Shown here piece by piece: positions 1 through 54,500 of a stretch of DNA of 64,000 nucleotides. The translations under genes were made by a program, and so were the position numbers. The notes under the pieces were generated by a model. The model ran no database searches. It had not been told where the DNA came from and worked only from the letters and a program-made list of their open reading frames with translations. The number at the start of each line of letters is the position of its first letter. Within the stretch, counting starts at the first letter, position 1. Location: the NCBI RefSeq assembly GCF_035222485.1, contig NW_026946671.1:1860001-1924000 (forward strand), written 5' to 3'. Source of the DNA: Podospora pseudoanserina (lineage: Eukaryota > Ascomycota > Sordariomycetes > Sordariales > Podosporaceae).

Positions 1-100
1 CAGAGAACTCAGCCCCAAGAAGAATCCTTCACCCATTCACAACATTTTCACTATCCATCCATTCACAACAAATTCACTATTCAACCTTCAGACAGACAAA

Positions 101-1519
101 ATGCTGCGAGGACGTGGTGCCCCACAGTCTGAACAGAGACAACCCCACTCTCCAGGAGCAGGGGTAAAGCGGTCGCAACCCCGCAATGGTATGTGCCCTG
201 CTGCTACGAACTTCCAAGGCGCATCCCACTCAATTACTCACATCACCTCTCATAAAACAGGCAAAGATCCCAATACAGCTTCAGAGGGAAAAAAGACCGG
301 CATGCGCTTCGCCTCACCTCGCCAGACAGTGGCCAGCATAGATGAGACCGAGGGGGTCGGCCTCATCATCACTGAGCCAGAGGATCTATGGCACGCCAAC
401 AACCTCATCGCAATTGGCGACACCGTCTATGCCCCCACTAACCGCAAGGTCGCCACCGAGACTCTCACAGGGTCAACATTCACTCAAAAAGTGCGCATCG
501 AGCTGGCCGTCAAGGTCACCGACACCTCTTTTGACCCCCGCGCCTCGGAACTTCGCGTGGCGGGCACTATTGTCAACGAAAATGAAATCGCTGCCGTGGG
601 ACAGTACCACACCATCACCCTCAAGCACACTGATCGCGACATCAAGTTTACCATATGGAAGGAACAAGGCTGGGACTCGGTGGCCCGCGCCCTGCTCGCA
701 GAGGCTGTCAGCGAGACGGCCAACAAGGACGTGGTGTTTGCAGTGGTGATGCAGGAGGGAATGGCCAATCTCTGCCTGATCACCGAGTCAAGAACATTGG
801 TCAAGCAGAGGATCGAGCACACCATCCCCAAGAAGAGGTCGTCGCGCAAGGAGGCCGAGGGAGGCATGTCAGACTTTTACGGGAAGATTCTGTCAGCCAT
901 ACTCAGCGCCATCGACTTCAACGAGCGCTCCGGCATCCCCAAGCAACTACTACTCGCCAGTCCTGGCTTCGTCGCGCATAACTTTCGAGATTACATGAAG
1001 GAGTATGCCGAGAAGAAAGCGAACAAGCCACTGGCGCGGTTGGCTACCGAGGCGGCCGTGATCCACACGAGCACTGGACATGTGCACAGTCTCAACGAGG
1101 TGCTCAAGAGCCCCGAGGCACAACGAACCATGCGAGACTCCAAGTTCACCAACGAGACAAAGCTGATGGACAATTTCTACCAAAAGCTTCGGCAAGACGA
1201 TGGGAGGGCGTGGTACGGTGTTCAGCCAGTCGCCAAGGCCATCAGAGAAGGTGCCGTGGGCCGTGGCGGCGGTGTGTTGATGGTGAACAGCGCCTTTTTC
1301 AAGAGCATGGACGTGGCGGAGCGGCAGAAATATGTTGCACTTGTCGACAAGGTCAGGGAAGATGGCGGCGACGTTAGACTGCTCAGCAGCGACCACGAGA
1401 GTGGCCAGCGGTTGGATGCATTGGGCGGGATCTGTGCGCTCCTGACATACCCGTTGCATGATCTTGATGAGGAGGATGAGGAGGAAGATGCGTCGGCGGC
1501 GGGGACGACAATAATATGA
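101..1519 (+). CDS. dom34: Dom34/pelota-like mRNA surveillance and ribosome rescue factor
   Basis: Pelota/Dom34 proteins are eRF1-like factors that, with Hbs1, split stalled ribosomes in no-go decay. Exons 101-188 and 261-1519 join across a 72-bp intron (GTATGT...ACAG), giving 448 aa. The Sm-like N-terminal domain starts near MRFASPRQ and contains EPEDLWHANNLI; the middle eRF1-like domain has LLLASPGF and HTSTGHVHSL and, as in Dom34, no GGQ; the third domain has RAWYG and LSSDHESG; the tail is acidic. About 40 residues precede the usual family start, so an ATG at 301 is an alternative. The intron is a multiple of three and lacks a stop, so it can also be read through. The N-terminal domain reads as rather diverged, so a paralog is possible. 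Family call is firm; orthology is not. Confidence 0.85.
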   Translation: MLRGRGAPQSEQRQPHSPGAGVKRSQPRNGMCPAATNFQGASHSITHITSHKTGKDPNTASEGKKTGMRFASPRQTVASIDETEGVGLIITEPEDLWHANNLIAIGDTVYAPTNRKVATETLTGSTFTQKVRIELAVKVTDTSFDPRASELRVAGTIVNENEIAAVGQYHTITLKHTDRDIKFTIWKEQGWDSVARALLAEAVSETANKDVVFAVVMQEGMANLCLITESRTLVKQRIEHTIPKKRSSRKEAEGGMSDFYGKILSAILSAIDFNERSGIPKQLLLASPGFVAHNFRDYMKEYAEKKANKPLARLATEAAVIHTSTGHVHSLNEVLKSPEAQRTMRDSKFTNETKLMDNFYQKLRQDDGRAWYGVQPVAKAIREGAVGRGGGVLMVNSAFFKSMDVAERQKYVALVDKVREDGGDVRLLSSDHESGQRLDALGGICALLTYPLHDLDEEDEEEDASAAGTTII

Positions 1520-38289: not shown

Positions 38290-39836
38290 ATTTGAAGATG
38301 CCGAAGCTCAGGCTCCCCTCCTCTGGAGAATGAGAAATACTACGAGGCTGAACATCGTGGCGGTGTCGAAGATCCCAACGATTACTATCCCAGCGGCTTC
38401 CATCCCGTCCTTCTGGGTGATTTTCTGGGCAAGAGCAATCGATGACGGGCCATCAACAAACAAGGAGCGGCGAACACGGCACTGTTTGGCTTTGCAGAGA
38501 CAGGGCCCCGGCCAAATGAAGGGCAGTCAAAATCTTTTCTGCGAAGGTCTCGCATCCGACAGCCGACATCGACCCCCACGAGCTGCCAGATCACCGAACC
38601 ACTGCAATGGCAGACATGGTCATCTCTAAGAACCTTGCCAAATGGTACCAGCCAGACGACCCAGCCCTTAGAAAACATCACATCGGCATCCCACTTGAGT
38701 ACTTCCGGATCAATGGTCCGAATGGCAAGCATCTCTGCCACGTTTCGCATCTTTATGGTCCCGCCATTCAACACGTCCACGACCTGTACTCGCCCTGTCA
38801 GTCCTTGCTGAAAGCCATCGCCTATCAGATCGTTGATTCCATGGCCTTTCTTCATCAGCACGGCATCTATCATGGCGACTTTCGACTCGCAAACGTCATG
38901 TTTTGCTTGCTTCCTGGAGTCGACAAACGGCCAGAGGAGAAGATGATCAAGCTCTAGGGCAAACCGAAAATAGTCCGAGTCCACGCAGTTGACGAGGAGG
39001 GGGAACGGGACTTTGAAATCGAACCGAACGTCCCTCCTTATCTCATCCAAACGGCCAACTTCGACCTTTCTTCCGGCGCCTGTTCTTACAATATCGCGGT
39101 TATTGACTTTGGCATGGCCTACTTCCTCGACAATCCACCCACCATCTGCGTCATCCCATTCGAGCTGTCCTACCCCGAAGGGATTTTTACCAACGGGCGA
39201 TTAGGTTGGCCGGCAGACATTTGGTCACTCGCCTGCACTATTCTTTGGACTGTGGCGGGAAGTTACCCATTCGGCGATGAAGACTCGGAGTCCACACCAT
39301 GGCTTGTCGTGGAGGACGTGGAAAGGCTTATGGGACCAATGCCACTGCGCTATCGTCCCCTGCTCACCAGCTGTGTTAGCGTCGGCAGAGAACTGAGTGA
39401 GCGACAGATGAATGACCCGTCCAAATACGCGACTTTCAATCGTCGGGAATCTCACGCCTCCACATACCATGGCGATCCTGACGTGATGAGAAACAGAATT
39501 TGTGTCAAACATGTGCTTCCCTAGACATCGGAGGAGTAAGAGGAGCTCGCCAAACAGGACGAGATCTGGAGGAAAACAGGACGTCTTCCCAAGTACATCA
39601 AGGCAGCAGGGACTGGAGGTGAAACGATCTGGCGCCCAAGCCTACTAAATGATCGCGAGGATGGCGAGGCTCTGTCGGACCTGTTGCTATCCATCTTCAA
39701 ATGGGAACCAACTGAGCGTGCGACTACCAAAACCCTGCTGGCACATCCCTGGTTTAAGGACCACCGCTCTCGTGGTTCTGACAGCAGTCAGCATCCCGGC
39801 AAGGATGGAACTATCTGGCTAGGGGAAAAGTGTTGA
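38290..39836 (+). pseudogene. decayed SRPK-like protein kinase
   Basis: The N-terminus reads EKYYEAEHRGGVEDPNDYYP and GFHPVLLGDFLGKSNR, as in fungal SR-protein kinases (YYPV..G..). The rest of the kinase is open mainly in one frame: GEHGTVWLCRDRAP, RAVKIFSA, IPLEYFRINGPNGKHLCHV, HQHGIYHGDFRLANVMF (catalytic loop), NIAVIDFGMAYFL (DFG), LGWPADIWSLACTILW, FKWEPTERATTKTLLAHPWF. It is interrupted by TGA at 38443, a frame change before about 38470, then TGA 38517, TAG 38955, TAG 39522 and TAA 39537. No introns remove these. The host gene is inactive; remaining stretches are still highly readable, so decay looks recent. Confidence 0.85.
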
Positions 39837-45415: not shown

Positions 45416-46127
45416 TTTGGGCTCCCTGTGAACTGACCTGGACAGTGTCAGATAGAATGGTTGTCGACAGGGAGATCAAGGTCAACATCAAGCACAGATG
45501 CGACAGGAAAGTAGGTTTTCTTTAAGGAAGAAGAGAATGTGACTTTAGCGCTTACCTCAGAAGCATCCCATTCCAAGAACTGTTGATTGGGTGCCAAGGG
45601 AAATATAGTGTCTAAGACCGGTTAAAATCAATTTGCTGCCCTCAATGGGAAGACCGAGATGCTCCGGCTTCAAGTAGATGGACGATGTCTACCAATGACA
45701 GATGATCATGCACTGAGTGAGGCGCAGGAATCAACCGATCGTTCTGACTGACATGAGCTTATTATAGTAGTGTATGCACAAACGAGGTAGCTGGCAGGCG
45801 GAGTCCACGCCCCAAGTACCAAACCTTTACAAAGGGCAAGGAACCGTCGCACCCCTTGCCACACGTCATGGACGAGAATGTACGCATTTCAAAACTGTCT
45901 GTACCACGCCCCCAATATAAGCCAAAGATTCTTCAAGGATAGGTACCTAGGTAAGTAGGTGGGTAACGTGGCACAAGATACCTACCTACCTACCTAGTTA
46001 TTATACGTGACCTCAAGCTATAGCAGGTAACTAGTCTATTGTCCACCTAGAGAGTTTAGTGGAGGCTGGTTGTATTACCTATTCAACTACCCCATAGAAT
46101 TGACTATTTTGTCCATGGCGTGTATAT
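45416..46127. other. intergenic region with TACC/GGTA repeats
   Basis: About 710 bp. Near 45941-46000 it holds GGTACCTAGGTAAGTAGG and a TACCTACCTACCTACC run. No supported gene. Confidence 0.55.
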
Positions 46128-47831
46128 CTACAGCGTGATTCCCTCGATCTTCCCTAAAATCCTCTCAACGAACTTTATCCCGACCACGATCAGATCCTGT
46201 TTGTTATGTGTGACGTCCGAGCTACCGAACTCATTATTCCCATCATCCAAACAGGTAAGACAATCCACCACGATCTCTGTATACAACCGCCCCATGCGCT
46301 GCGGGAGGGTCTGTTTTGCCAGCAAGACAAGATCCTCTTTGATCCATGACGTGGATCCTGGTAAATGGGCATGTTCAAAGTCCCGATCGCTCAGATGCTT
46401 TCTCAGCTGCAGTGAATATCCAGGAACAGGAGTTGGGACCGATGATGACGAGTTAGCGTGATTGGGGTGATGATAGGTTGACGAGGTCGAGCTACTGGTG
46501 GACGGGTACCAGACCAAAGACCGCCACAGTCCAATCTCAAGGAGGCACACACCCAGGCTATATATATCGTGCTGCATAACATATCTCTCCAAAATGCAAA
46601 GTCCCTGTCGTGCTGGATGCCGGTAAAGGTTCCGATACCAGGCTGTGTCACCGAGGCGGTTTGTCTCCATGTTGATGCTTCGAAATTGCGAGAAGCCGAC
46701 AAGAAAAGCCTGACCCAGTTCCAGGGGTCGCAGAGCAGCAAGAGCTGTTGGGAACAGCAGAATATTGTCCGGACGAATATTCTTGTGTACCAAGTCGCAG
46801 GTGTGCACGAAGCTGACAGAACGAACAAGCTGTTTTGCCAGTACGATGACCGAACTGAGACAAACAGGTCTTTGCTCAAGTAAGAGACTGCGAAGGGTTG
46901 TAGGCGGCTTGAGAGGGTCTGCCTGGGCCGGAGTATGATACACAATCTGGGGACCGGGGGGAAAGGTCTTGTTGTCGTCAATGATCTCTATGAGACCTTT
47001 GCAGCGTAGAAGGCCAAATATGCTTGGGTCAACGCTCTGGAGTCTCCTGCATAGTTGATAGGCGTCCGATGTAGTGTTTGTGTTGGTATTTGGGGCAATA
47101 CCAATGCCTTCCATGATATACAGACTTTGAGATTCTGGTCGGGCCACAACGTTGACGCTTGAAAAAGGAATGCTGGTTGCTGTGGTAAAGTCCCATCCTG
47201 TCTCATCCATGACGATGCTATTCGCACTTCTTATATCGGTGTTGATCGTGTAATCGATGGCCTTTCTTAACGCAAACATGTGATCCAGAGGGCTTGCGGG
47301 AGATTGGCTGTGTGGTAGCTGTCGGGATCTATCTTGTCCTAACTGCTGCAGTGCCGGGTCCAAGACCTTGCCGCCGATGAGCATAATCGTATACCACGAT
47401 GGATCGAATAGACTTTGCCAGCACTGTAACTCCGTCATCAAGGCATCCAACCCTCTTTTGGCCACAGCATATCTCCACCTGTCAAGCTGAAGCATTCTGG
47501 TCAGCACATGTCCCTGTCCAGTACTTGTGGAGGCGACTATTGATGAAGCCGCTGCTTCGAGCTGAGATACCGCCTGTAGCAGAGTTCCGCGTAGTCTTTG
47601 GAGAAGATCAAAATGACATTGTGCAAGTTCTTCAGTCAGATGATCTTTGATCCCGCGGAGGAAAACGAGCTGTATCTCTAGTTTCGTCCAAATCGTTTCG
47701 AGTAAAAGCACCTTATCACAGAGATCTTTCTTCGCAGTCCTGAAAGCTTGGCAGATGCGCAAGGTCTTGTTGGCAAGTTTGATGCAAATGTCGACGACAC
47801 TGACAACTGCGAGAGCGAGTTCTGCAGACAT
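46128..47831 (-). CDS. HeLo-like helical domain plus pseudokinase protein
   Basis: 567 aa, single exon. The first ~190 residues are a helical bundle beginning MSAELALAVVSVVDICIKLA, like the HeLo/prion-inhibition N-terminal domains of fungal incompatibility proteins (VSLAI..ldgC..G). From about residue 230 a protein-kinase fold follows: LCLSSVIVLAKQL-like helices, then LVHKNIRPDNILLF in the catalytic-loop position (HKN at 349-351 instead of HRD), LVGFSQFR where DFG belongs, GDTAWYRNLYRHP in the activation/APE region and HDIYSLGVCLLEIGLW. The Asp residues of HRD and DFG and an obvious ATP-binding Lys are absent, so catalysis is unlikely. Divergent neighbour is an active kinase with a YTH domain. 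Confidence 0.85.
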   Translation of the reverse strand: MSAELALAVVSVVDICIKLANKTLRICQAFRTAKKDLCDKVLLLETIWTKLEIQLVFLRGIKDHLTEELAQCHFDLLQRLRGTLLQAVSQLEAAASSIVASTSTGQGHVLTRMLQLDRWRYAVAKRGLDALMTELQCWQSLFDPSWYTIMLIGGKVLDPALQQLGQDRSRQLPHSQSPASPLDHMFALRKAIDYTINTDIRSANSIVMDETGWDFTTATSIPFSSVNVVARPESQSLYIMEGIGIAPNTNTNTTSDAYQLCRRLQSVDPSIFGLLRCKGLIEIIDDNKTFPPGPQIVYHTPAQADPLKPPTTLRSLLLEQRPVCLSSVIVLAKQLVRSVSFVHTCDLVHKNIRPDNILLFPTALAALRPLELGQAFLVGFSQFRSINMETNRLGDTAWYRNLYRHPARQGLCILERYVMQHDIYSLGVCLLEIGLWRSLVWYPSTSSSTSSTYHHPNHANSSSSVPTPVPGYSLQLRKHLSDRDFEHAHLPGSTSWIKEDLVLLAKQTLPQRMGRLYTEIVVDCLTCLDDGNNEFGSSDVTHNKQDLIVVGIKFVERILGKIEGITL

Positions 47832-48470
47832 GGTTCTTTGCAGTGCTATGGACCAGGTGACGCGATTTGTGAGGTTGTTGTAAGGTATGTTGTATCAGAT
47901 GGTAAGGTGGTGATGAAAATGCGGTCTGTGTCGGCTGGTTTTGGCGTGGCGCAGCTCGGGGAAAGGCGTCGTAGACATAATAATAGACAATGGAGCTATC
48001 CCGAAAGATGCTGACCAAAAACACCATGGATGTCTTCAACAGCCCTTCTAATATACCTATATCAAGCACCTCTAAAGGAGCTGAAAGGGTATGTGGACTG
48101 CCCTTGCAGGCATATTACTTGCCACGGTATCTAGGTAGGTAAGTATCTTTAAAGACCTATTAACTACCTTCAAAAGTCTGTGAACTATCTTCTAAATCCT
48201 CATCCAAAAGTACAGATTCCTTTTTTTTGTCCACGACGTATTCAGGGGTCGGCTGACCGCTGCCTGGCCGCCGCTTGCATGTGGCCAAGCAAGCCACAGC
48301 GCCATAGCTCGTTTCTGGACACGCGCTGAAGACAGGGGGCGCGCTGAAAACTAAAAACGCGCTCAAATCCAAGGCATGAGTACGGATGTTAAATACTGCC
48401 ATCGTTCCTCACTGTCGTATCACTTAGAGCCTGACTTACCCATATATGAGGTAGTTTGGATGCTGTGACC
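47832..48470. promoter_or_regulatory. shared divergent promoter of the pseudokinase and kinase-YTH genes
   Basis: 639 bp between two divergent start codons. It contains one AAGGCCT-family repeat cluster (48143-48203). No specific operator was identified; promoter function is inferred from position. Confidence 0.5.
48143..48203. repeat. AAGGCCTATTGACTATCTTT minisatellite, locus 6
   Basis: Three degenerate units (AAGACCTATTAACTACCTTC, AAAGTCTGTGAACTATCTTC), within the divergent promoter of the two kinase-fold genes. Confidence 0.8.
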
Positions 48471-50431
48471 ATGGCTGAAGGTATATCCGAGTTGGTTAAT
48501 TCCTCTCGGCTGGTGACAGAATTTTACCTCCCGAATTTTGTTGTCCACCATCTTGAAACTGGTAATGAAATCTGGGATCTGAGAGAAGAAATTGGCTATG
48601 GAGGATCTGGCGTGGTGCGAAAAGAGGAGCGTCGAGTTCACTCTAGTGGAAAGAAATATCAGGGTCCAATGGTACGAGCCGTGAAACAGATGAGAAAGGT
48701 TCCTCAAAACCCAGACCAAGGACAGTGGAATTATAGAGCCGAGTTGGAAGCAGTGGTGAAGTTCTCACAGCCAGAGGTATGCAAGCACGCGTGGTGGAAA
48801 TATCCAATGAAAGTTAACATTCAGCAACTTGCTAGTATGACCCTTTCTTTGTGCGCACCTTTGGGTGGTTCGAAAACCAAGAATCTGTGTTTCTGGCCAT
48901 GGAATATCTTCCATCGAGTGACCTAGAAAGATTCAGAAGGTCCTCGCCTCCGCTTTCCGAATTTGACACGAGCCTGATCGTGTGGCAGTTGATTCAAGGT
49001 GTGCGACACATGCACGATGCTGGGTTTGCACATCGAGACTTGAAGCCAGGGGTAAGTGGTGATACTACGTGTTCTTCATGTCCTCGACCATGTCACATGT
49101 GTCCCAATACATTCAGTCGTTATTGCCTGTAAATACCTAGCTCACATCGTCATACCCAGAATATACTCATCGCCTCAACATCCCCGATGTGGCACGTCAA
49201 AATCGCCGACTTTGGAATCAGCAAGCAAGCTATGCAGGGTGTAACACGCTTTCACACCATGCGAATCTTCGGGACCTTGGGATATATGGCACCCGAGGTA
49301 TTGGGTTACTATGCCAACAACACCGGAACCAACAATACCACGATTGCATACACTATGTCGGTCGATATTTGGGCTGTTGGTGTAATTGCAATGACCTTGC
49401 TGCTTGGGCGCAATATTTTTCCTTTGCCGGGCGACTACGCCAAATATGTCTTTGGACAACGGGCTCTTGACTTTGCCCGTGATCAAGGTGAGGTTTTGAC
49501 AGACGATTGCCAGGACTTCATAGCGGCCCTTCTTGCAGCGGATCCAATACTTCGACCGACTGCTGCTGCTGCCCTCGCCCACCCTTGGTTAATGCAGGCC
49601 ACCGAAGCAACTGAACCTTCTCCAGTAAGAGAGATCCCGGACTCGGAAGCAGACTCAGACGAGGACTCCGCTCCATCTGATTCACTACAGCCTTCCACAA
49701 AGAATCCGTGGGCGACAATCGGCAGTAGAACTTGGCCGAGCAAGGGATCGAAGACATACAGCGACGCGCTCCTGACGAAGTTCAAGTACCTCTGGCTTGA
49801 TATTATTCTTCTATCTCCCAAGTTCCATACTATTGAGTTCGAGAAGGTTTGTCTCTCTCCTTGTCCATTGGCCAGCCAATGGCACGATTTAACGGCGTTC
49901 TTCTTCACCTTAGACTCGGTTTTATGTTCTACGCTCCGATAACGCCATAGATATTGAGACAAGCGCTGCTCAGAGCGTGTGGACTTCTAGTCAGCGTGTC
50001 AACAAAATCCTTGACAAAGGATACCGGACATCCGAAGGCCATGTGGTTCTATTCTTCTCCGTGATTGGTAGGTAAGTAATCGTATCACATGATTCAAATT
50101 ACCTATTACTGGTGGAGGTAGGCAAGGTATCTTATAAAGATATGAAGCTGACACACACTGCACCAGTCGGCGATTCTGTGGAGTAGCACAGATGACCAGC
50201 GCACTGGATTGGGAGAATACTGACCCCCATTGGGTTGAGGATGTCTGGCAGGGACGGTTCACCTTGGCCTGGCTCAGTCATACAGAGCTCTCATTTGACC
50301 TTGTCAACCATGTCCCGGTAAAGGAGACCACACCTCGTTTCAGAGCTATCGCTTGTTACGATGGCACTGAGATCTCACCTGGATCCGCATATGAATTATT
50401 GAGAGTTTTTTCGGCGGCGGAAAGACGGTGA
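48471..50431 (+). CDS. Ser/Thr protein kinase fused to a YTH (m6A-reader) domain
   Basis: Five exons (48471-48776, 48836-49051, 49160-49850, 49951-50071, 50167-50431) give 532 aa. Kinase, residues ~36-318: Gly loop IGYGGSGVV, VRAVKQM (Lys), AHRDLKPGNILIA, KIADFGISK, FGTLGYMAPEVLG, SVDIWAVGVIAMTLLLG, RPTAAAALAHPWLM; all catalytic residues present. An acidic Ser-rich linker follows. YTH, ~390-525: SVWTSSQRVNKILDKGY, HVVLFFSVIGSRRFCGVAQM, HWVEDVWQGRFTLAWL. Trp415, Trp467 and Trp472 sit in the three aromatic-cage positions that hold N6-methyladenosine. YTH is readable only after splicing; the exon 4-5 join (GTAAGT...CCAG) is exact. The exon 3 donor at 49851 (GTCTCT) was picked because it restores family spacing; using GTTTGT at 49847 would lose the YTH frame. 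Confidence 0.82.
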
Positions 50432-50816: not shown

Positions 50817-51543
50817 TTAAATCCAGTGATACACGCTGAGTTTGCTTGAACCACCGCAAGTCTCGGTGGGAGCACCAGTACAGGCCAAATCACAATCCGT
50901 GTCTTCGAGTTGGACGCTCAAAGCATCTAGCTCATGGCCACAAAAGCATTCAGCCATGTATTGCAGTCCAAAGAAGACAAATCCAGAGTTGAGACAGTAA
51001 TCCGCACAGCGTTCGATTGTCATGGCCGCAGGGGAGAAGCCAAAGCCTCCAGCGAGAGCCCGATCGGGGGCCGGGAGCTCGCTAAAGCATCCTTGGTACA
51101 CTGGGGCGGAGACCTCAGGGTGAGGATAAGGCGTATGTGGAGGGGCCTCCTCAGAACTGCCCCAGAGAGAGATGCGGTTTGGACCTCCGCATGTCTGACC
51201 GGCGTCTCCAGTGCATTGCATGGAGCAATCTTCCGGGAAGGTAGGGAAGGAACCTGTGTCAAGAGAGTTGCCACAGTAGCTGTGAGACTTGTTAGATACC
51301 GAATGATACGGAAACGGGGAGAGCTTCTTTGACTTACCACTCGCCTCCATATTCTAGTCCCCAGAGGGTGAAATTACGGGTGGGATCGGTGCAGTATGTC
51401 TCGCAAGCCTCCACGGTCATCGCCTCAAAGTCCGCGGTGCTCGCGCCGGTCAAAGCCCGAGTGGGAATTTCCGTATAGCAGCCGTAGAAAGTTTGCCCGA
51501 CGACGGCGGGGACGAGGGCGGCAAGAGCGAGAATGGAGTACAT
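50817..51543 (-). CDS. secreted protein with two WSC domains
   Basis: Exons 51543-51338 and 51279-50817 join to 222 aa across a 58-bp intron that splits a Cys codon (GLEYGGEC-YCGNSL). Signal peptide MYSILALAALVPAVVGQ. WSC 1: FYGCYTEIPTRAL, MTVEACETYCTD, YCGNSLDTGSF, CSMQCTGDAGQTCGG. WSC 2: VYQGCFSELPAPDRAL, MTIERCADYCLNSGFVFFGL, ECFCGHELD, CDLACTGAPTETCGGSSKL. WSC domains bind carbohydrate in cell-wall sensors and glyoxal oxidases. There is no membrane segment or catalytic domain here, so this is a free binding protein. Confidence 0.93.
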
Positions 51544-54500
51544 CTTGATGGGTTGGAAAAGATCTTTGGTTGAGATTGTAGAGGATGTGGTGACTGATGA
51601 TGGGGGAAGAGATCAGAATGACAACATCGAGGGTGGTCGTCTTACTTATAGACTTCGAGGAATCATCCTCTTTGCTTCTTCATGGTTGTGGATATATTGT
51701 TGACTGAATGCGTTCCGTCTGGCCTATCTCCGGTGTCCCCAACACCATTGACTCGATACCACTCTGCATTGGTACTCTCCCAAGAAGGTAAACACGAAGT
51801 GCACCTGCATGATCGCATCTCGACGAGCCTCGAACGCCCAGCTAACGACAAAATGTCTGGCATGCAGAAAAGACAATATCACATGCAGCCCAAAAGAGAT
51901 ATACATGCAACTGGACCCCTGAATCCTTCGTACGATCCGTGGATCGAAATAGCCTCAATGTCTCGTCAAGATATCGCCAAGACCTTTGAGGTTGTGTAAC
52001 CAATGCTGATGGGAAAATCGTCATATGAAGGTAACTAGGCAAGGTACCTACAGACTTAGATAATTGACTGCGGTTCTTGATAGAAGTGTGCCCATAGTTT
52101 GGTATAATCCTTCATTACACTCAAGGTTGGTGCTAAGTCATTACCTACCTGGAAAACCAGATCTTCAACGGCGAGGGATGCGGATCGTTCCGTTCCCCGA
52201 GGTCCCTGAGCTTGCAAGGGTCTAAAGCAGAAAGCTGCATATGCCAGCCCTCGGATTACCACCCTGTGCCTAGTTAGTACGTACTTTTCTGCTTCTTACG
52301 CTCACCGATTTTCCACAACAAACGCCCAGTTGCAAAGATGGACTCACGCCGGGCGCCGGCAGGGAATATAATTCAATAGACAGTCAGCCACTTGCCAAAG
52401 TTCTTTGACTGGAAAAGTCCCGCCAGCAGGAAAAAAACAGTAAAGTAAGCGTGGCCAGAAGGGGGCGTGCTGCATTCACTGTTGCACAACATAGCCCAGA
52501 AATTGTAGGAGCCAGGACTCTTTGAACAGTGTCTAGAAGTTGCTTCGGTCAACGGGTTCGCCTCCAAAGATAGACAAGAGAAAGTAACGTTAGGTGGATG
52601 CGATGAGACCCTGATGCAGATCGATTGTGACGTGAGGCTCCCCCATGCACACATCCTTTGTAGCTGCAATATGTGAACCGCGGTTGCGGGATTGTTTTCC
52701 GCGCCATTCAGCGGTCAACGCGTGCAGGCGTGACATGGCCGATGCCAAACCATCGGGGGTTTTACCTATTACCCGTTTCGTTTTTATTACACCCGATCTG
52801 ATCTCCGTCCCATGCATGTCTCAGTGGGCCCCTGATTCCCCATTCTGTGGGGTTGTTCTACCAGGTCTTGCCGCCCCCTGAAGAGGCTGATGGCCTAGAC
52901 GACAGCTTGCCAGGGGCATGAATGCTACCCGAGTAACTAAGAAAAACCTAAGCGGGAAGGTGACGGTTCTTGAATAACACCTCGGGGAGGTAGGCCAAGC
53001 AAAATAAACGGTCTGGACGCAAAAGCTGAACAAATGATCTCCACCGAGTACTACATGACTTGACACCCAGTCTCTATTGTCAGACCACCCCGCCTGCGGT
53101 AGAGTTGGACTTCTCAGGTTGTAGTCACAGTGCAGTTGCATATTTGGCTGCAGAGCTATATCTGCAGGATATCAATATCGAGCAGAGATTTCGATGGGAT
53201 CCTCATCCGACTCGGCCGTGATTAGGAAATGCTTCGAGAAAGGACGCACGGCACCCAACGGGCATCACCCACTTGCCAGACTTGCAGAGCACCATTTCAT
53301 GCCGCTGTACCCTTTGATGAGGGATAGAATATCAACCTGTACAGTCTGGGTAAGCAGGAAATTCATCGGGACTGACGACAGCCTTTGCGTTCAAGTTGCA
53401 AAGCAGATGGAGTTTATGAACGCTCCTGGGAAAGGGCATCGGATGTTCCGGTAACATGGATCCTGTTTTAGTCACGACGGCCAAAGGATTACCTTAGCTT
53501 TGCCGCTGCCACAGTGCCACACCGGCCCAGTCTCACCAGATGCAAAGTTCTAGCCAACTTCCAATGGTGGCTGTATTGAGTCCAATATGGACGCTGTGTG
53601 GCTAGCTGACAGGCCCCAATTGACCTTTGAAGCTGACACAGAGTCTACTAGATATATTCATCGTGTATGACCCTGGATCGACTTGAAGCGCATCGGTAAT
53701 TACTCACAGGTTCCCACCTTCATGATGACAAGACTTTGTTCACCTAGCCACATACGCCATTTCACAGCCATTCTCGTCACCATGCTGCCTATTCACTCAC
53801 TTGAATCTTGAAACGACTTTCTGACATAGACACTGGTCCCACGCCTTCAAAAGCGTTGATACCATATAGACTGTGGGTGTGTAGTAGCCGCTAATCCTAC
53901 ACAAACACGCACATGATGACCAAGTACCAATTTCCACTACAGAGCAGACGTCATCGTCTCGGTACAGGCTGCCATGCTATCTCCCGGACTGATATATAAC
54001 GTTCTTACCGATGTCGCACTCCAATGGCCACCACAGCTATGGGTACCTCCCCCATGCTGACTCAAAACCAGGTCCCAACAACCTACTCAGGTATCCGGTT
54101 GTAGTCAGCATCCTACTGGTTCAATTTGATCATCTCCAACAGTGGTACAAGATCCCTACTCATATTACAGACCCTGGCCAATAGGCGACTTAATCTCTGG
54201 TGATGGTGTGATTTGTGGCTTGACGGTTTTTGTGGGGTGCCTACCATGTGCATTGACTGTAGATTAACGACATGTTTCCAGAAAGGCTAGCGATGTTTTG
54301 CATATATAAAGACAATACTCCAAATTCGAAAACATCTTTCTGCGAGAAGTCACATTCGTTGGTATTTAATTATTGTGATTGAGACAAGCCATTATTGTAC
54401 ACTGTTTAGCTGTACCGAACCAGGATTATTGAGAAGTGCCTTCGACTAATATCCCTCTCAGAGGTTCTGGATAGGGGTTCGTCACATCCACGCAACCCAC

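Follow-up and report, generated by a model that had tools for sequence, protein, structure and literature searches.

A predicted Podospora pseudoanserina gene joining a serine/threonine kinase to a YTH domain

The locus and its gene model

The window analysed here is a stretch of 64,000 nucleotides from Podospora pseudoanserina (contig NW_026946671.1, positions 1,860,001 to 1,924,000 of the forward strand), in which a reading frame running from the ATG at 48471 to the TGA at 50429-50431 on the + strand is predicted to encode an N-terminal protein kinase domain and a C-terminal YTH domain. When rebuilt from the DNA, the gene consists of five exons joined via four GT-AG introns (59, 108, 67 and 95 bases, in order) into one frame of 543 amino acids, correcting the 532-residue model of an initial sequence-only reading. 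The exon-intron structure is that of the predicted splicing.

Exon 1 (48471-48776, +) carries the start codon and the kinase N-lobe, with the Gly loop, Lys72 and Glu91, and ends at the donor GAG/GTATGC. Intron 1 (48777-48835, +) contains a branch-like TTAAC 18 bases before its 3' end, and its acceptor, before 48836, is the only one of the five candidates tried that leaves the frame open. Exon 2 (48836-49051, +) continues the kinase up to HRDLKPG, and intron 2 (49052-49159, +) opens with a GTAAGT donor, the exon join rebuilding HRDLKPGN. The kinase C-lobe, with the DFG and APE motifs, is encoded by exon 3 (49160-49846, +) together with a linker of approximately 80 residues (321-403), the first part of which is acidic. 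Intron 3 (49847-49913, +; GTTTGT...TTAG) separates it from exon 4 (49914-50071, +), which encodes the first half of the YTH domain including W426, and intron 4 (50072-50166, +; GTAAGT...CAG, with a branch-like CTGAC) precedes exon 5 (50167-50431, +), which provides the second half, with W478 and W483, and the stop TGA. The YTH domain occupies these last two exons and not three, as had initially been proposed. In introns 1, 3 and 4, branch-like motifs are found 15-21 bases upstream of the acceptor.

Introns 2 and 4 have stronger donors than intron 3, the donor of which deviates from the usual consensus, GTRNGT. Retention of this intron would add 31 further codons up to the TAA at 49940-49942, yielding a kinase-only product of 434 residues. 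Both features would fit a regulated splicing of intron 3, with two products, one joining kinase and YTH domain and one with the kinase alone, which would make RNA targeting optional. However, similar stops are encountered in most retained fungal introns, and we regard such regulation as improbable.

The kinase domain

The Pfam scan of the rebuilt protein matched Pkinase (PF00069) at residues 37-318 with an E-value of 1.9e-48, covering positions 3-263 of the 263 of the profile, and a score of 165.6 bits versus a cut-off of 31.7. All of the kinase landmarks are in place, namely the G42 loop, K72, E91, D170 of the HRD motif, N175, D191 of the DFG motif and E220 of the APE motif, and K72, D170 and D191 bear out the Lys, HRD and DFG identified in the sequence-only reading. 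Among solved structures RAD53 is the best match (E 7.6e-30), followed by DAPK and CaMK. The N-terminal domain is, from these similarities, most likely a serine/threonine kinase of the CAMK/RAD53-like type, and, provided that a single fused gene is present, the conserved residues make a catalytically active enzyme probable. No FHA domain was matched in the Pfam scan of the 543-residue protein. Identity with the NCBIfam defence kinase MAD6 was considered and discarded (59 versus a cut-off of 460 bits), the match being to the kinase fold only.

One gene or two

The YTH domain (PF04146) was matched in the same scan at residues 404-537 with an E-value of 2.9e-30 over positions 1-134 of the 135 of the profile (105.2 bits versus a curated cut-off of 22.1), so that both profiles are matched over their full length with E-values that rule out chance. 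The joining of the two domains in a single protein, as put forward in the sequence-only reading, is strongly supported by the sequence. In the YTH frame a TAG lies immediately before 49914, where it forms the splice acceptor itself, the domain starts at the first codon of exon 4, and no ATG is present in this frame between 49914 and the end of exon 4, i.e. none ahead of the YTH core from which a separate protein might have been started. Since the stop is immediately upstream and no ATG precedes the core, the whole YTH domain is translatable only if it is spliced to an upstream exon.

The possible upstream exons were enumerated by taking every GT-AG join that connects the kinase frame to the frame of the YTH domain, along with ATG-started alternative first exons. 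Only two joins reach 49914 from the kinase frame. That from the donor at 49847 (AAG/GTTTGT, 67-base intron) is the best formed, and the sole alternative reaching the start of the YTH domain uses the donor at 49625 (CCA/GTAAGA, 289-base intron); both preserve the entire kinase domain. ATG-started first exons in other frames amount to a few short peptides deep within the kinase-coding stretch.

Genes lie close together in fungi, and neighbours are at times merged in gene models, so that the kinase and the YTH domain might be adjacent genes, or the latter a decayed remnant next to a kinase gene, joined on paper alone. However, only 67 bases separate the two parts, so that a terminator and a promoter would not fit between them. 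The stop and the missing ATG, as well as the poverty of first exons in other frames, also argue against two genes, as do the two YTH exons, which are both open, are connected by a matching phase-2 splice and encode a full-length domain. Because the YTH domain needs an upstream exon, and the plausible donors, with the kinase only 67 bases away, extend the kinase frame, two separate genes are very unlikely. Thus, the sequence makes one fused gene encoding kinase and YTH domain very probable.

The YTH domain and its m6A pocket

The best matches of the YTH domain among solved structures are YTHDF2, YTHDF1 and YTHDF3 (E 1.7e-19 to 1.6e-17), with weaker ones to yeast methylated RNA-binding protein 1 (8.4e-11), CPSF30-YTH (2.5e-9), YTHDC2 (2.5e-9) and YTHDC1 (1.4e-7), while no Mmi1 chain is found among the solved-structure matches. 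By these similarities the domain is of the YTHDF/Pho92 type. Alignment with human YTHDF2 gives 43 identical residues over 133 aligned positions (approx. 32%). The aromatic cage formed by W426, W478 and W483 aligns with W432, W486 and W491 of YTHDF2; all three cage tryptophans had been recognized before, but with numbers (415, 467 and 472) that are too low by 11. Also kept is D416, equivalent to YTHDF2 D422, which corresponds to D401 of YTHDF1, a residue facing N1 of m6A (PMC6112328).

Several other positions differ, YTHDF2 Y418, C433, R441, N462 and R527 being replaced by D412, T427, I435, I454 and Y520, respectively, while K416 is kept in kind as R410. In YTHDF2, R441 and R527 are contacts to the RNA backbone. 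The domain here carries a net charge of −3, versus +6 in YTHDF2. In the fission yeast Mmi1 protein, a negative groove along with the loss of the YTHDC1 N367 equivalent abolishes m6A binding (PMC6112328).

Judged by its residues the domain is intermediate, with the m6A pocket largely kept and a less basic surface. It is possible, if rather less than probable, that the fusion is real and the YTH domain does not read m6A, but serves as a module binding proteins or unmethylated RNA that localizes the kinase, as the Mmi1 precedent, the lost backbone residues and the negative charge would allow. However, the present protein retains the full tryptophan cage as well as the D422 equivalent, whereas Mmi1 has lost the equivalent of YTHDC1 N367, and the best matches are m6A-binding YTHDF domains. 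Thus, m6A reading by the YTH domain is plausible from its sequence, and, given the fused gene, m6A-dependent RNA binding is slightly favoured.

Relation to known proteins

The protein resembles YTHDF1-3 and yeast Pho92 in the YTH type, the three-tryptophan cage and the D422 equivalent, but differs from them in several RNA-contact residues and in the basic charge. YTHDF and Pho92 proteins have disordered N-terminal regions and are not known to carry a kinase. With RAD53/CHK2 and other CAMK-group kinases it has the kinase domain in common; however, RAD53/CHK2 carry an FHA domain, whereas here a C-terminal YTH domain is found instead. The principle is similar to that of PKR (EIF2AK2), in which an RNA-binding domain and a kinase are also combined in one chain. 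The double-stranded-RNA-binding domains of PKR are N-terminal and recognize the duplex rather than methylation, so that RNA-binding domain, ligand and domain order all differ, with no homology outside the kinase. YTHDC2 (a helicase) and CPSF30-YTH (a polyadenylation factor) are also natural fusions of a YTH domain to a catalytic or RNA-processing protein, but the fusion partner is not a kinase.

No kinase-YTH fusion was described in the open-access papers searched, in agreement with the earlier statement that no characterized protein of this kind was known, and the protein is a new pairing of two known families. A survey of fungal YTH proteins sorted 868 of them into three clades, with a Pezizomycotina-only clade of filamentous-ascomycete proteins, labelled 'PHO92', adjoining Pho92, and with approximately one-fifth of Pezizomycotina species carrying a PHO92 protein as well as a YTH1 protein (PMC10826363). 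This clade is a possible home of the kinase-YTH protein. The word 'kinase' is absent from the main text of that paper, where the domain architecture of the clade is not given. Since the clade was published without its architecture in the text, uncharacterized kinase-YTH relatives may already be present in databases. Magnaporthe has YTH1 and the more distant YTH2, and Cryphonectria has CpYTHDF1, the architectures of which are not given in the available portions of the reports (PMC11361730, PMC10055536). No relatives of the fusion were found in the viral, prokaryotic and plasmid collections scanned, as expected for a eukaryotic domain.

Proposed function

The arrangement of an N-terminal kinase, the linker and a C-terminal YTH domain in a single protein would allow the latter to bind m6A in RNA, thereby concentrating the kinase on methylated transcripts, where it may phosphorylate proteins of the messenger particle. 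Alternatively, the coupling may consist in RNA binding relieving an inhibition of the kinase, which would be switched on at methylated transcripts. Binding of m6A, activity of the kinase and a coupling of the two are inferred, and our proposal that the fused protein, when bound to m6A, acts as an RNA-directed kinase on methylated transcripts is the simplest mechanism and the most likely of the readings considered, but is given somewhat less than an even chance. A stronger version, in which methylated RNA itself would directly set the activity of the enzyme (an m6A-gated kinase), is unlikely; such a kinase might be shared by filamentous ascomycetes generally and might act on the machinery of translation or decay, or serve to sense foreign RNA.

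m6A readers act via recruitment of decay, translation or splicing factors. If the proposal were correct, a reader borne by a kinase would couple RNA methylation directly to signalling by phosphorylation. Filamentous fungi possess the writer MTA1 and extra readers, which are poorly understood, and the kinase-YTH protein may account for part of this unexplored set.

Neighbouring genes in the window

A WSC-domain protein (50820-51612, −; WSC E 6e-29, in two stretches) is encoded just downstream of, and convergent with, the kinase-YTH gene. The ORF at 2-1516 (+) contains all three eRF1-fold domains but neither the GGQ nor the NIKS motif, and is, from its sequence, most likely the ribosome-rescue factor Dom34/Pelota. 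A kinase-like fragment (IAVIDFGMA...; Pkinase E 2.4e-6) is present at 38958-39521 (+).

The divergent neighbour is a single-exon ORF of 567 residues (46131-47831, −), the start of which is 640 bases from that of the kinase-YTH gene. Its product contains a helical N-terminal region and a degenerate kinase C-lobe, in which HKNIRPDN replaces HRDLKPxN and no clear DFG is seen (Pkinase E 1.7e-4, below the cut-off), so that it looks like a pseudokinase. That it is paired with the kinase-YTH protein, e.g. as in the RIPK3-MLKL pair, is only a guess, and the idea of an MLKL-like partner was dropped, the single-sequence structural model having a mean pLDDT of 38. Short runs of TAGGTA/ACCTACCT repeats are found in intergenic DNA at 48120-48150 and 45940-46000, flanking the pseudokinase gene on both sides.
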